Assembly (NCBI GenBank): GCA_023250585.1
Contig: JAHFAK010000042.1
Coordinates: 1 to 6,877, forward strand
Reading direction: 5' to 3'
DNA: 6,877 nucleotides
From: Deltaproteobacteria bacterium
GTDB lineage: Bacteria > Bdellovibrionota_F > JAHFAK01
The notes beneath the pieces are model-generated. The model was not told where the DNA came from, ran no database searches, and saw nothing but the letters and a program-made list of their open reading frames with translations. Each line of letters starts with the position of its first letter. The first letter of the stretch is position 1. Shown piece by piece: positions 3,309 through 6,877 of this stretch. A program made the translations under genes and the position numbers.

Positions 3309-4274
3309 CTAATTTCTTGTAAGAAGTACCTTTTCAGTCCCAAAATTAATATGAATATTTGATGACTCATTAATTCTTCCAATAACTGAAAATTCTTTAT
3401 CTAACACAGTTCCTTCTTCCACAATAACTACCATCCCCCATCCCATATTAAATGTTTCAAACATTGTGGTATAATCAATGTCCGCACGCCTTTTAATTTC
3501 TTGGAAAATTTCAGGAATCTCTCGAAGAGTTATATCCATACCATACTCGGTTAGGCGGAAGAGGTTACGAAAGCCGCTGCCCGTAATATGAGCTATTCCA
3601 TGAACTTTATCTTGTAAATCATTAATAATATTTATTATTTCTTTCACATAAATTCGAGTGGGGGTGAGAAGCTTTTGGATAGATCCTTTTTCTTTAGTAT
3701 CAAAAAGTTTGCGGATTAACGTATATCCATTGCTATGAGGTCCAGTAGAAGGAAGGCCAAGAATTACATCGCCTGGCTTTATTTTATTTCCCGTAATTAT
3801 TTTGTTTGGATGAACTAATCCTACGGCAAAACCAGCAAGATCATATTTACCATTATCATAAAAATCTGACATCTGTGCCGTTTCGCCACCGAGAAGAAGC
3901 ATGCGAGCTTCGCTACATGCCTTGACGATACTTACAAAAATTTCTTTCTTTATCGTTTCATCAATTTTTCCATGCGCAATATAATCGAGAAAAAAAAGAG
4001 GTGTTGCACCAACACAGAGCAAATCATTGACGTTCATTGCAACGAGATCTTGACCAATTCCATTATGGATTCCAGCATCCATTGCGAGTTTAATTTTTGT
4101 TCCAACGCCATCAGTAGTTGCTGCAATTGCAGTCGAATCATTGATTTTATAAATTCCTGCGTAGTCACCAACTTTTGAAAGAAGGTTTGCATTATTAGTT
4201 GCAAGACAATCTTTAATGTAATCAACCCAATGTTCTGCTTTGTGAATGTCTACGCCTGCTTGTTTGTAATCCAT
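3309..4274 (-). CDS. purM: Phosphoribosylformylglycinamidine cyclo-ligase (AIR synthetase)
   Basis: Cytoplasmic enzyme of de novo purine synthesis that closes FGAM to AIR using ATP. The 321 residues are close to the usual 330-350 and cover the whole fold. Visible landmarks: YKQAGVDI (3-10), TTDGVGTKIKLA (53-64, the ATP-binding DGVGTK), DLVAMNVNDLLCVGATPLFFLDY (76-98), LLGGETAQM (127-135), YDLAGFAVG (144-152), GPHSNGY (178-184), HITGSGF (229-235) and FNMGWGMV (275-282). The commoner forms GGETAEM and HITGGG are changed to GGETAQM and HITGSG, mild substitutions that give no sign of inactivity. It is the last gene of purQ-purH-(GIY-YIG)-purM and converges on the PIN remnant. The ATG at 4274 has only a poor Shine-Dalgarno (AGAAAG). 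A 29-bp hairpin ends 15 bp upstream, so expression may depend on read-through past that structure. Confidence 0.97.
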   Translation of the reverse strand: MDYKQAGVDIHKAEHWVDYIKDCLATNNANLLSKVGDYAGIYKINDSTAIAATTDGVGTKIKLAMDAGIHNGIGQDLVAMNVNDLLCVGATPLFFLDYIAHGKIDETIKKEIFVSIVKACSEARMLLLGGETAQMSDFYDNGKYDLAGFAVGLVHPNKIITGNKIKPGDVILGLPSTGPHSNGYTLIRKLFDTKEKGSIQKLLTPTRIYVKEIINIINDLQDKVHGIAHITGSGFRNLFRLTEYGMDITLREIPEIFQEIKRRADIDYTTMFETFNMGWGMVVIVEEGTVLDKEFSVIGRINESSNIHINFGTEKVLLTRN

Positions 4275-4289
4275 AAATACTTTCTAATG

Positions 4290-4357
4290 GAGATTGCTTC
4301 GCTACGCTCGCAATGACAATTCTCTATCTGTCATTGCGAGCGTAGCGAAGCAATCTC
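4290..4357. repeat. 68-nt perfect hairpin made of repeat copies A and B
   Basis: Bases 4290-4318 and 4329-4357 are exact reverse complements over 29 bp, with a 10-nt loop (ATTCTCTATC). The core is TTGCTTCGCTACGCTCGCAA, clearly richer in G+C than its surroundings. This is the dispersed repeat seen in many unrelated bacterial genomes, which yields spurious 'SVIASVAKQS' peptides when translated. It lies between the GIY-YIG stop and purM, and its inner end supplies two bases of the GIY-YIG stop codon. Confidence 0.95.
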
Positions 4358-4643
4358 ATAACTCATTATATAAGTCCTTCCAATTTTTATTCTCTTTACA
4401 AATTAAATCTATTTTCTTGTGTCTAGAACCTCCTTTAATTTGCTTTTCTCTTTTTATTGCTTCTTCAATATCAGTAAATACCTCATAATATACTAGTTTT
4501 ATAGTATTATACTTTTTTGTAAATCCATCTACCAATTTTTCTTTATGTTCATATACTCTTCTATGTAAATTATTTGTTACTCCCGTGTAAATAACTGTAT
4601 TATTTTTATTTGCCATCATATATACAGCGTATACTTTTTCCAT
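4356..4643 (-). CDS. Small GIY-YIG nuclease domain protein
   Basis: A 95-aa single-domain protein of the GIY-YIG superfamily (YhbQ/UPF0213-like group), probably a metal-dependent DNA endonuclease; the target is unknown. The first motif reads VYAVYMM (AVY at 6-8 in place of GIY), the second YTGVTNNLHRRVYEHK (YTG at 19-21 in place of YIG, Arg at 28-29), then GFTKKYN (40-46) and EAIKREKQIKGGSR (61-74) with the conserved Glu (E66) expected to bind metal. So the catalytic Tyr, Arg and Glu are present; the usual KGW becomes KGG. The ATG at 4643 is chosen because the family start 'MxKxYxVY' fits; no Shine-Dalgarno is seen. The frame stays open upstream through repeat copy C, reading SVIASVAKQ. The TGA stop overlaps copy B. 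It lies on the same strand as the pur genes but has no known role in purine synthesis and looks inserted. Confidence 0.9.
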   Translation of the reverse strand: MEKVYAVYMMANKNNTVIYTGVTNNLHRRVYEHKEKLVDGFTKKYNTIKLVYYEVFTDIEEAIKREKQIKGGSRHKKIDLICKENKNWKDLYNEL

Positions 4644-4655
4644 ATTACAAAAAGG

Positions 4656-4690
4656 TTGCTTCGCTACGCTCGCAATGACAGATAGACAAT
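4656..4690. repeat. Repeat copy C, right inverted partner of copy B
   Basis: Bases 4656-4690 match the reverse complement of 4319-4353 at 34 of 35 positions (the one change is G/C in GATAGAGAAT versus GATAGACAAT). The core is the same TTGCTTCGCTACGCTCGCAA. The copy ends on the last base of the purH stop codon and starts 12 bp upstream of the GIY-YIG ATG. Confidence 0.95.
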
Positions 4691-6195
4691 TAATGTAAAA
4701 AATGCCTCCGGCCTGTCATCAGCACATAAATGCCCTTTTCTTTTGCTCGTGTTACAACTAATTCGTCATTTTTTGATCCACCGGGCTGCATTAAATACTG
4801 CAGGCCCAACTCACTCATTTCATCAATCAAATCGGGGAAAGGCAAAAATGCATCGCTTGAAGCAAGAATAGAATCAAATTCAAGTTTTTCTTTTGATACA
4901 TTGATTTTTGGAGCAATGAGTTCTCGTACGCAATCAACACGATTAGGCTGTCCAAAGCCAGCCGCAAGAAGCATATATTTTCCTTCGCCAATTCTCATCG
5001 TAAGTGCAACGGCATTCGATTTCATACTCGCAACAGCAATTTCAGAAAAACGCAAGAATTGATTGTCATGAAAAAGCTTTGGTGCATCAGCAGGAATTGT
5101 TAATGCTTCAAAATGTTCATCTTTGTCTTGGAGTAACATGCCAATATTTGTTGATTTACCATCAATTGGGGAAAACTTCGATGCATCAAATGTAATAAGT
5201 CGCAAATTTTTCTTTGTATCTTTTATAGCTTGTAAAAACTTTTGAGAAAAAGACGGAGCAGCAAGTACCTCAATATATTTATCTTCAATCTCATCAAGAA
5301 ATGACGATGACACTCGAGTATTGAGCGCAACCACACTTCCAAAAGCACTTACTTCATCTCCAGCCCATGCAAGACGGAATGCAGTATCGCGATCAGTGGT
5401 AACAGCAAACCCACAAGGGTTATTATGCTTAATCACCACAGCAGCAGGTTCTTTAAAGCGGGCAACAATAGCAGTTGCAGAACTTATATCTAAAATATTA
5501 TTGTAGGAAATTGTTTTTCCATACGGTAAGATGCGGATCGCATCATTGAGAAAAATGGTAGCATGTTGATGAGGATTCTCGCCATACCGAATCGGCACAA
5601 CTTCTTCCTCAGTGACTTCAGGATCAAGTGAACTAAATTTTGCGAAAATATACTGATCGTAATCAGTAATTATACCAAATGCTTTTTTTGCAAGTTTTTT
5701 TCGGAACGTAACTGAGGCAGCGGCATTATACTCATGGTGCTCAAGAACATCCATTGCTTCTCGATAATCATTTGGATTCGCAACAACGGTAATATAACGA
5801 TAGTTTTTTGCAGCTGCACGAATCATATTTGGACCACCGATATCAATCATTTCAATAGAAGGACTGTCTTTAAAAGGATAGAGATTGCATACAACAATAT
5901 CAATGTGCGGAATGGCGTATTTTTCGACATCGTATTTGTGGTTCTCTTTCTGTCGGTCAAAAAGAATTCCTCCTAAAATTTCATATGATATTGTTTTGAG
6001 TCGTCCATCAAAGACTTCCGCTTTATCCGTAAAAGTACTGACTTCGATGCATGAAATTCCTTTGGCTTCCAAATATGTTTTGGTTCCTCCGGTCGCAATA
6101 ATACGATAGCCAAGATCAATGAGCTTCTTTGCGAATATTTCTACATCTTTTTTATTGTATACACTCATTAATGCATATTTAGAGAGATCGTGCAT
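4690..6195 (-). CDS. purH: Bifunctional AICAR transformylase / IMP cyclohydrolase
   Basis: Catalyses the last two steps to IMP: formylation of AICAR with 10-formyl-THF, then ring closure. It is cytoplasmic; 501 aa from the chosen ATG versus about 510-530 usual. N-terminal cyclohydrolase (MGS-like) domain: ALMSVYNKKDV (8-18), ATGGT (34-38), DGRLKT (63-68, with the conserved Arg and Lys), VCNLYPF (102-108), IDIGGPNMIRAAAKNY (117-132). C-terminal transformylase: RYGENPHQ (203-210), KHNNPCG (256-262, the catalytic Lys-His), VSAFG (282-286), KSNAVAL (392-398), SSDAFLPFPD (446-455), QPGGS (470-474), ending RRHFLH. The usual 'KTLHPKIHGGIL' reads KTISYEILGGIL, so the His-Pro and second His are missing. 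The ATG at 6195 is preferred over an in-frame TTG at 6213 because AAGGA lies 7 nt upstream. It overlaps purQ by 17 nt. Confidence 0.97.
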   Translation of the reverse strand: MHDLSKYALMSVYNKKDVEIFAKKLIDLGYRIIATGGTKTYLEAKGISCIEVSTFTDKAEVFDGRLKTISYEILGGILFDRQKENHKYDVEKYAIPHIDIVVCNLYPFKDSPSIEMIDIGGPNMIRAAAKNYRYITVVANPNDYREAMDVLEHHEYNAAASVTFRKKLAKKAFGIITDYDQYIFAKFSSLDPEVTEEEVVPIRYGENPHQHATIFLNDAIRILPYGKTISYNNILDISSATAIVARFKEPAAVVIKHNNPCGFAVTTDRDTAFRLAWAGDEVSAFGSVVALNTRVSSSFLDEIEDKYIEVLAAPSFSQKFLQAIKDTKKNLRLITFDASKFSPIDGKSTNIGMLLQDKDEHFEALTIPADAPKLFHDNQFLRFSEIAVASMKSNAVALTMRIGEGKYMLLAAGFGQPNRVDCVRELIAPKINVSKEKLEFDSILASSDAFLPFPDLIDEMSELGLQYLMQPGGSKNDELVVTRAKEKGIYVLMTGRRHFLH

Positions 6196-6877
6196 ATTCA
6201 ATTCCTTTCTCAAAAATGACCGTCCCTAGGGGAAGCTTTTCTTTTTTATTGGCTCCACCAGCCGGATGCATTTCATATCGGTGCATGGCTTCAGGATGAG
6301 GCATCATACCGAAAACGACGCCTGATGTATCACATATACCGGCACTATTACAAGCCGACCCGTTTGGGTTATTCGTATACGTAAAAACGATTTGTTTTTT
6401 ATCAAAAGTTTTCTCGTTAAAAAAAACTACTTTGCCTTCACCATGACGAATAGGTAGCTCAAAATAATCAGGAATATCTTTGCCAAATACGAGACATGTT
6501 TCTTTATTTTTTTCTAAGCCCACCCATGTATTAATAAAATGTCCCCCATCGTTTTGATCAAAGGCTATAGGAAAGAATCCAAGCTGAGCCAGTACTTGAA
6601 AGCCATTACAGATACCAATAATTGGTCGCTTCTTTTCGACATGCTGCTTGAGTTCATCATAAAACGTTGCCTGAATTCGGCGAGCAAGAACAAGCGCACT
6701 ACCAAGATAATCTGCATATGAAAAACCACCGGGAAAAACGATCATGTGATAGTCACGAATGAGCGGAGGATTTTCACAAATTTCATTCATGAGTTTTATA
6801 TCGGCAATAGCCCCTACTCTTTCACATGAAAATTTTGTTTCAATTTCACAGTTGATGCCATCGCCGGAAATAATGAG
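6179..6877 (-). CDS. purQ: FGAM synthase, glutamine amidotransferase subunit (5' end outside window)
   Basis: Glutaminase subunit that feeds ammonia to PurL for making FGAM from FGAR; cytoplasmic. 232 codons are visible and the frame is open to the right edge. The first visible residues, LIISGDGINCEIETKF, match the usual N-terminal strand of PurQ ('VLxLxGxGxNCExET'), so only a few residues should be missing. The class I amidotransferase triad is complete: Cys in GICNGFQ (residue 90 of the visible part, codon at 6610-6608), then His and Glu in MPHPEA (194 and 196). VFPGGFSYADYLGSA is the oxyanion-side loop. The C-terminal MPHPEAMHRYEMHP resembles the longer PurQ type rather than the short Bacillus form. 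An internal Met at 6790 is not the start, because the conserved N-terminal strand lies upstream of it. purL or another pur gene may lie further right. The stop overlaps purH. Confidence 0.95.
   Translation of the reverse strand, partial: LIISGDGINCEIETKFSCERVGAIADIKLMNEICENPPLIRDYHMIVFPGGFSYADYLGSALVLARRIQATFYDELKQHVEKKRPIIGICNGFQVLAQLGFFPIAFDQNDGGHFINTWVGLEKNKETCLVFGKDIPDYFELPIRHGEGKVVFFNEKTFDKKQIVFTYTNNPNGSACNSAGICDTSGVVFGMMPHPEAMHRYEMHPAGGANKKEKLPLGTVIFEKGIEYARSL
6203..6207 (-). promoter_or_regulatory. Shine-Dalgarno of purH, inside purQ
   Basis: The minus strand reads GAAAGGAA with AAGGA at 6207-6203, 7 nt before the ATG at 6195. It decides the start in favour of that ATG over the in-frame TTG at 6213, and it lies within the 3' end of purQ, pointing to translational coupling. 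Confidence 0.75.

Follow-up and report, generated by a model that had tools for sequence, protein, structure and literature searches.

A stretch of 6,877 nucleotides from a deltaproteobacterial genome (contig JAHFAK010000042.1), here termed the window, carries a small GIY-YIG nuclease gene between inverted copies of a palindromic repeat, within a run of purine biosynthesis genes. The arrangement raises the question of whether such a nuclease could be the enzyme of the repeats that enclose it. Palindromic repeats tagged with CGTC, TGTC or CCTC, including the dRS3 elements of Neisseria and the Rickettsia RPEs, were described in 2013 by Di Nocera et al. as elements that 'apparently lack a dedicated transposase' (PMC3733652).

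The window is one contig (C96) of a 2.24 Mb genome assembled into 164 contigs (G000), and the genes concerned, all on the minus strand, form the string purQ-purH-[GIY-YIG]-purM. The features are as follows.

3309..4274, minus strand: purM (PF00586, PF02769), the neighbour downstream of the unit.
4290..4318, minus strand: repeat A, a third copy lying head to head with B across a 10-nt spacer; the unit does not need it.
4329..4357, plus strand: repeat B, the palindrome downstream of the gene, TGTC head outward, with a 2-base overlap with the stop codon.
4356..4643, minus strand: GIY-YIG nuclease gene, 95 aa, a stand-alone domain (PF01541, 65.5 bits).
4653..4680, minus strand: repeat C, the palindrome upstream of the gene, TGTC head outward; relatives show the same placement and orientation.
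4690..6213, minus strand: purH (PF01808, PF02142), the neighbour upstream of the unit.
4329..4680, no strand: proposed mobile unit [repeat B - GIY-YIG - repeat C], approximately 352 bp, delimited by analogy with the loci L044 and L275 and with presence and absence in Sphingobium.

The preliminary description of this sequence had placed a 95-aa GIY-YIG gene between 35-bp inverted repeats identical at 34 of 35 positions. This was confirmed, the repeats corresponding, with slightly shifted ends, to the 39-nt arms of B and C (4318-4356 and 4653-4691; 95% complementarity, 296 nt between them), and in both the TGTC end faces away from the gene. It was likewise borne out that the reading frame is open back through C, to 119 codons in all, and stops in B, the codon at 4356-4358 sharing two bases with the end of that repeat. 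Copy A and its perfect hairpin with B (29 nt, 100% complementarity) also proved real, but the pair is simply a head-to-head repeat dimer and not a special part. On its plus strand the repeat has the consensus TGTCATTGCGAGCGNAGCGAAGCAATCTC. The window genome contains 21 copies of the core at three or fewer mismatches and 87 of a broader TGTC-headed form, GTCATTGCGA-N4..34-GCAATC, against 0 of the reversed pattern, and the core is therefore not a chance motif. Elsewhere in the window, at 873-1585, a gene for an NTase_sub_bind (HI0074-like) protein overlaps one for a small Pol-beta nucleotidyltransferase, a layout resembling that of MNT/HEPN toxin-antitoxin pairs, and a 48-bp in-frame tandem duplication (2064-2159; 92% identical) lies inside a 386-aa ORF without a Pfam match.

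AlphaFold predicts the window protein to adopt a compact GIY-YIG fold with confidence (pLDDT 94.5), the nearest folds being UPF0213, Slx1 and the UvrC N-domain. The Pfam match, above the cut-off (PF01541, E=5e-18), and the conservation of the GIY and YIG tyrosines (Y8, Y19) and of the catalytic R29 and E66 agree with this fold in assigning it to the GIY-YIG superfamily; within its subfamily Y8, Y19, G21, H33, E66 and K67 are invariant, and R29 nearly so. Values of dN/dS between 0.02 and 0.15 point to strong purifying selection on the nuclease. Its best solved relatives, the stand-alone UPF0213 proteins (1zg2, 1ywl), have the same domain and size but are distant, at 27% identity, and other stand-alone GIY-YIG genes are without these flanking repeats. 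Slx1 cuts branched DNA and thus offers a plausible model for hairpin cutting, although both it and UvrC are repair enzymes without flanking repeats, and the window protein has no partner domain. GIY-YIG homing endonucleases (I-TevI and free-standing forms) are also encoded by selfish genes, and spread through breakage and repair is possible in both cases. Unlike them, however, the window protein is a single domain of 95 aa without NUMOD or another DNA-binding domain, and the unit is inserted at numerous scattered sites and ends in palindromes of its own, with neither an intron nor an allele-specific site. Neither the window repeat nor the window protein had a match in Rfam, PHROGs, PADLOC or NCBIfam.

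The window palindrome has an outer stem of only 5 bp (ATTGC/GCAAT), a large internal loop and a variable inner part. A perfect inner stem of at least 4 bp was present in 27.5% of 160 distinct window-type copies compared with 4.8% of shuffles, an excess indicating that the hairpin is kept while its sequence changes, as would suit a nuclease that reads structure. The published CGTC-tagged REPs comprise four families with an 8-9 bp stem, a 4-5 nt loop, an unpaired head and an unpaired CCA-like tail (PMC3733652). With these elements (dRS3, Rickettsia RPE-4 and RPE-6; PMC3733652) the repeats studied here have in common the CGTC/TGTC head, an AT-starting stem and a preference for inverted pairs; as to the tail, many relatives end in CCA and the window copies in CTC. 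The window repeat, with its TGTC head, shares the head of the family but departs from the published dimensions of stem and loop, which the ATTCCCGC and ATGGCCGGG types at other loci do show, and is hence best regarded as CGTC-like rather than as a member.

In a first search, the window protein was compared with 98 phylogenetically scattered genomes with repeats disregarded; all close relatives with readable flanks sat, by eye, between palindromes, often of genome-specific sequence. An alignment of 14 such proteins was used for a protein-pattern scan of 84,980 species genomes, which gave at least 576 loci; the 80 best of them formed the test set. These were fetched by protein similarity alone, when the pattern had been noticed but not yet measured; the set is biased toward proteins resembling that of the window, and a few loci (three from Bradyrhizobium) are not independent. 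Palindromes were detected as GTC followed by a 5-nt arm starting with AT or GT, then, after an interval of 3-50 nt, the arm's reverse complement and C or T, with GTC outward and within 300 bp, a strict definition that skips the window's own copy C (tail AAC) and so gives slightly low counts.

A GTC-headed palindrome with its GTC end outward was found upstream of 58 of 79 relatives, spanning about 20 phyla, downstream of 70 and on both sides of 55. At 790 random positions in the same loci, with the same geometry, the corresponding numbers were 33, 27 and 1 (Fisher p=1e-66 for the two-sided comparison). The preliminary description had proposed counting how often the nuclease lies beside the repeat, and the enrichment found by such a count is very strong. 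A sequence-agnostic test, in which the upstream flank was locally aligned to the reverse complement of the downstream flank, gave scores of at least 12 for 73% of loci; random positions reached this score in 2.3% of cases and flanks paired across loci in 22%. Among other GIY-YIG genes, both UvrC-like and stand-alone, just one of 45 loci was two-sided (some of these loci being the same place fetched twice), and the association therefore belongs to the subfamily. That one case is itself a decayed relative, 41% identical, from the genome of the window, and its palindromes are of another type. The second, decayed gene of the subfamily in that genome, with an in-frame TGA, lies at G000:C21:2616-2789 (L008) and has on both sides a palindrome of a type different from the window's, CGTCATCCCGCGGCTTGACCGCGGGATCC.

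The association was also tested from the side of the repeats. Across all loci read, 68 of 69 adjacent, matched, GTC-outward pairs lying 200-700 bp apart enclose a GIY-YIG gene. In 65 this is the gene by which the locus was fetched; of the remaining four pairs, two in L103 and one in L140 hold additional GIY-YIG genes belonging to the subfamily, and the last holds none. A search of 386 genomes by palindrome spacing alone returned mostly repeat arrays and chance matches, including most of the type II matches, which were no units. Among the matches examined, a part of those listed, a GIY-YIG gene lay within the complete adjacent pairs, which came from the window, G039, G087, G004, G021 and G148, the last being a genome new to the analysis; L326 is a new unit found by spacing alone. 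On the deltaproteobacterial contig of L103, three GIY-YIG/palindrome units occur in about 6.5 kb (8001-8285, ~13292 and ~14156).

Palindromes are alike on the left and right within a locus and different between loci. In 87 two-sided loci, the left and right 8-nt stems differed at a mean of 0.82 positions, compared with 2.92 when permuted (minimum 2.38 in 2000 permutations). The preliminary description had also suggested comparing repeat and nuclease phylogenies, and these agree: protein distance correlated with stem distance (Mantel r=0.52, permutation maximum 0.13), including when only cross-phylum pairs were considered (r=0.32, permutation maximum 0.22), and four broad repeat types required 18 changes on the nuclease tree, compared with a mean of 54, and at least 48, when shuffled. 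Repeat and nuclease have thus diversified together. By contrast, host phylum required 37 changes for 22 phyla (68 rows), from which it follows that transfer of the gene between phyla has been extensive. Where a genome has two repeat types, each type is paired with its own nuclease. In G021, one unit ends in ATTGC-type palindromes and another in ATTCC-type palindromes; G025 combines units of the ATTCTGAG type with units of the ATTCC type; and in either genome both repeats are plentiful.

Several comparisons show that gene and palindromes are gained or lost as a whole. In G004, two copies (L044 and L275) are 82% identical, their homology beginning at the TGTC head on the left and stopping at the GACA end on the right, with unrelated flanks, and in G053 two copies are 91% identical across the approximately 395 bp comprising the gene and its palindromes. 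Sphingobium plasmids, otherwise about 87-98% identical around the fnrL spacer, show three states there: MM15, MM7A and TYG46 carry the full unit, TYG74 and TYG64 just one double-headed palindrome, and TYG72 and TYG65 neither. The single palindrome looks like the product of a crossover between the two unit ends or, in the other direction, the site of entry. Resembling this state, G000:C119:5517-5538 (L026) is a single double-headed palindrome, GTCATTGC..GCAATGAC, with 10-bp inverted flanks GATATTTATT/AATAAATATC. In Azospirillum lipoferum, the gene with its repeat dimers separates sufB from sufC, which in its relatives are divided by a short spacer. The same spacer carries a unit in Shinella, with a different palindrome type (L256 and L267), and these are possibly two independent insertions into one operon. 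The empty sites of Azospirillum and Shinella are too diverged to give exact unit ends. No target-site duplication was evident by eye at L044/L275, and the empty-site spacers are too diverged for one to be read. In Bradyrhizobium, the gene is in conserved synteny, so it is not always mobile.

Bare repeats had been suggested to be non-autonomous relatives and, as expected of such elements, pairs away from the gene favour the layout of the unit ends (52 GTC-outward, 15 inward, 16 tandem). Two further proposals were rejected. Insertion into palindromic targets was not above chance for gene units overall, the flanks beyond the GTC heads scoring 2.56 compared with 2.20 when permuted (permutation maximum 2.58), though the window's own outer flanks do match as an inverted repeat. 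A multi-copy repeat dimer in the window genome was considered as proof of repeat transposition, but the homology does not stop at the dimer and takes in a surrounding element that has inverted ends of its own. This element, of about 290 bp with ends GAGGTGTGAAAGAATCA, has captured the dimer and is present in approximately ten copies (G000 C10, C13, C19, C42, C49, C59, C61, C63, C67 and C82; L237-L246), and a Y1 transposase gene adjoins the C13 copy.

The distribution of the repeat among genomes complicates the assignment of the nuclease as its enzyme. In 97 other genomes, the nuclease was found in 15 and at least ten repeats in 26, with 12 having both (Fisher 3.7e-6) and 14 repeats only. The enrichment and the phylogenies support the assignment made in the preliminary description, but the case it had named as counting against it, genomes rich in the repeat yet without the nuclease, does literally occur: G062 (440 copies), G019 (132), G042, G058, G095 and others lack the subfamily. 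G062, with its roughly 440 TGTC-headed palindromes, yielded no member of the GIY-YIG subfamily and no Y1 transposase. In N. gonorrhoeae, a relative adjoins dRS3, and the nearest dRS3 copies point the opposite way. A link that runs one way fits the loss of an autonomous partner, and would also allow for other movers.

One such possibility is that a Y1/RAYT-like or other transposase moves the GTC-headed repeats and the GIY-YIG gene is a passenger caught between two of them. Y1_Tnp genes, present in 17 of the 19 genomes checked, mean that another enzyme could do the moving, and the element with the captured dimer demonstrates that other elements can amplify these repeats. A passenger would nevertheless be expected to vary, yet unit-sized matched pairs hold the same gene family in all but one instance; the co-diversification of repeat type and nuclease and the strong purifying selection also tell against it, as does the failure of Di Nocera et al. 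to see a transposase gene associated with CGTC repeats (PMC3733652), and we consider this explanation unlikely. A shade less probable again is a domesticated host function, in which the nuclease removes or resolves palindromes at cruciforms or stalled forks and the repeats gather as a side effect or through self-regulation. The Slx1-like fold, the selection on the gene, the synteny in Bradyrhizobium and the retention of the gene beside its own putative substrate would all be consistent with such a role, but it sits poorly with a patchy distribution (15 of 97 genomes), extensive transfer between phyla, several unit copies per genome, presence and absence between close plasmids, and the survival of repeat-rich genomes without the nuclease. 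That palindromes often insert beside small dispensable genes, so that the association reflects chance or target bias, is very improbable: some of these genomes do have such repeats commonly inserted between genes, but the random positions and the other GIY-YIG genes already contradict it, as do the matching of stems within loci and the agreement of repeat type with the nuclease tree.

The explanation we favour, and think probable, is that a selfish unit about 350-400 bp long is present once in the window and that the GTC-headed (CGTC/TGTC) repeats have this nuclease subfamily as their dedicated enzyme. The unit, a TGTC-headed palindrome, the nuclease gene and the same palindrome inverted, would have inserted between purH and purM, with bare repeats and GTC-outward pairs as its non-autonomous relatives. 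By analogy, the subfamily is proposed to play for these repeats the part of RAYT for GTAG-REPs. RAYT/TnpA-REP REPtrons and REPINs (PMC2817692, PMC3116915) similarly have a small nuclease gene between two inverted REPs, congruent repeat and enzyme phylogenies, few enzyme copies, many bare repeats and bare inverted pairs. The likeness is one of organisation, and the window unit is not a RAYT: its enzyme is a GIY-YIG hydrolase with no Y1/HUH domain (only PF01541 matches), its head is (T/C)GTC rather than GTAG, and its gene, of about 95 codons, is found in more than 20 phyla.

The small Slx1-like nuclease may recognise the hairpin or cruciform formed by its own palindrome beside the GTC head, and would then nick or cut at that head, or else cut a target. 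GIY-YIG enzymes hydrolyse DNA and do not join it, for which reason host replication or repair is invoked to copy the unit or bare repeats into the break; this is the least certain step. Whether these units amount to a class of mobile element not recognised before, present in over 20 phyla, with a ~95-aa GIY-YIG hydrolase as sole enzyme, hairpin ends, and structure-guided cutting coupled to host replication or repair, and the source of CGTC-type REPs, we regard as evenly balanced.

No earlier report linking a GIY-YIG nuclease to these repeats was found in the open-access PMC literature. With the gene in more than 20 phyla and nearly always between two palindromes of the type dispersed through the host genome, its product is likely to be the missing enzyme of one of the two major palindromic repeat families in bacteria. 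GTC-headed palindromes are among the most widespread bacterial repeats, and include dRS3 in Neisseria and, in Rickettsia, the elements inserting within genes; the enzyme left open by the 2013 survey now has a specific, very small and testable candidate. The unit may rank among the smallest one-gene mobile elements, and the matched enzyme-palindrome pairs are a useful set for studying hairpin recognition. REP-like repeats would then have originated on two or more occasions, with nucleases unrelated to each other.
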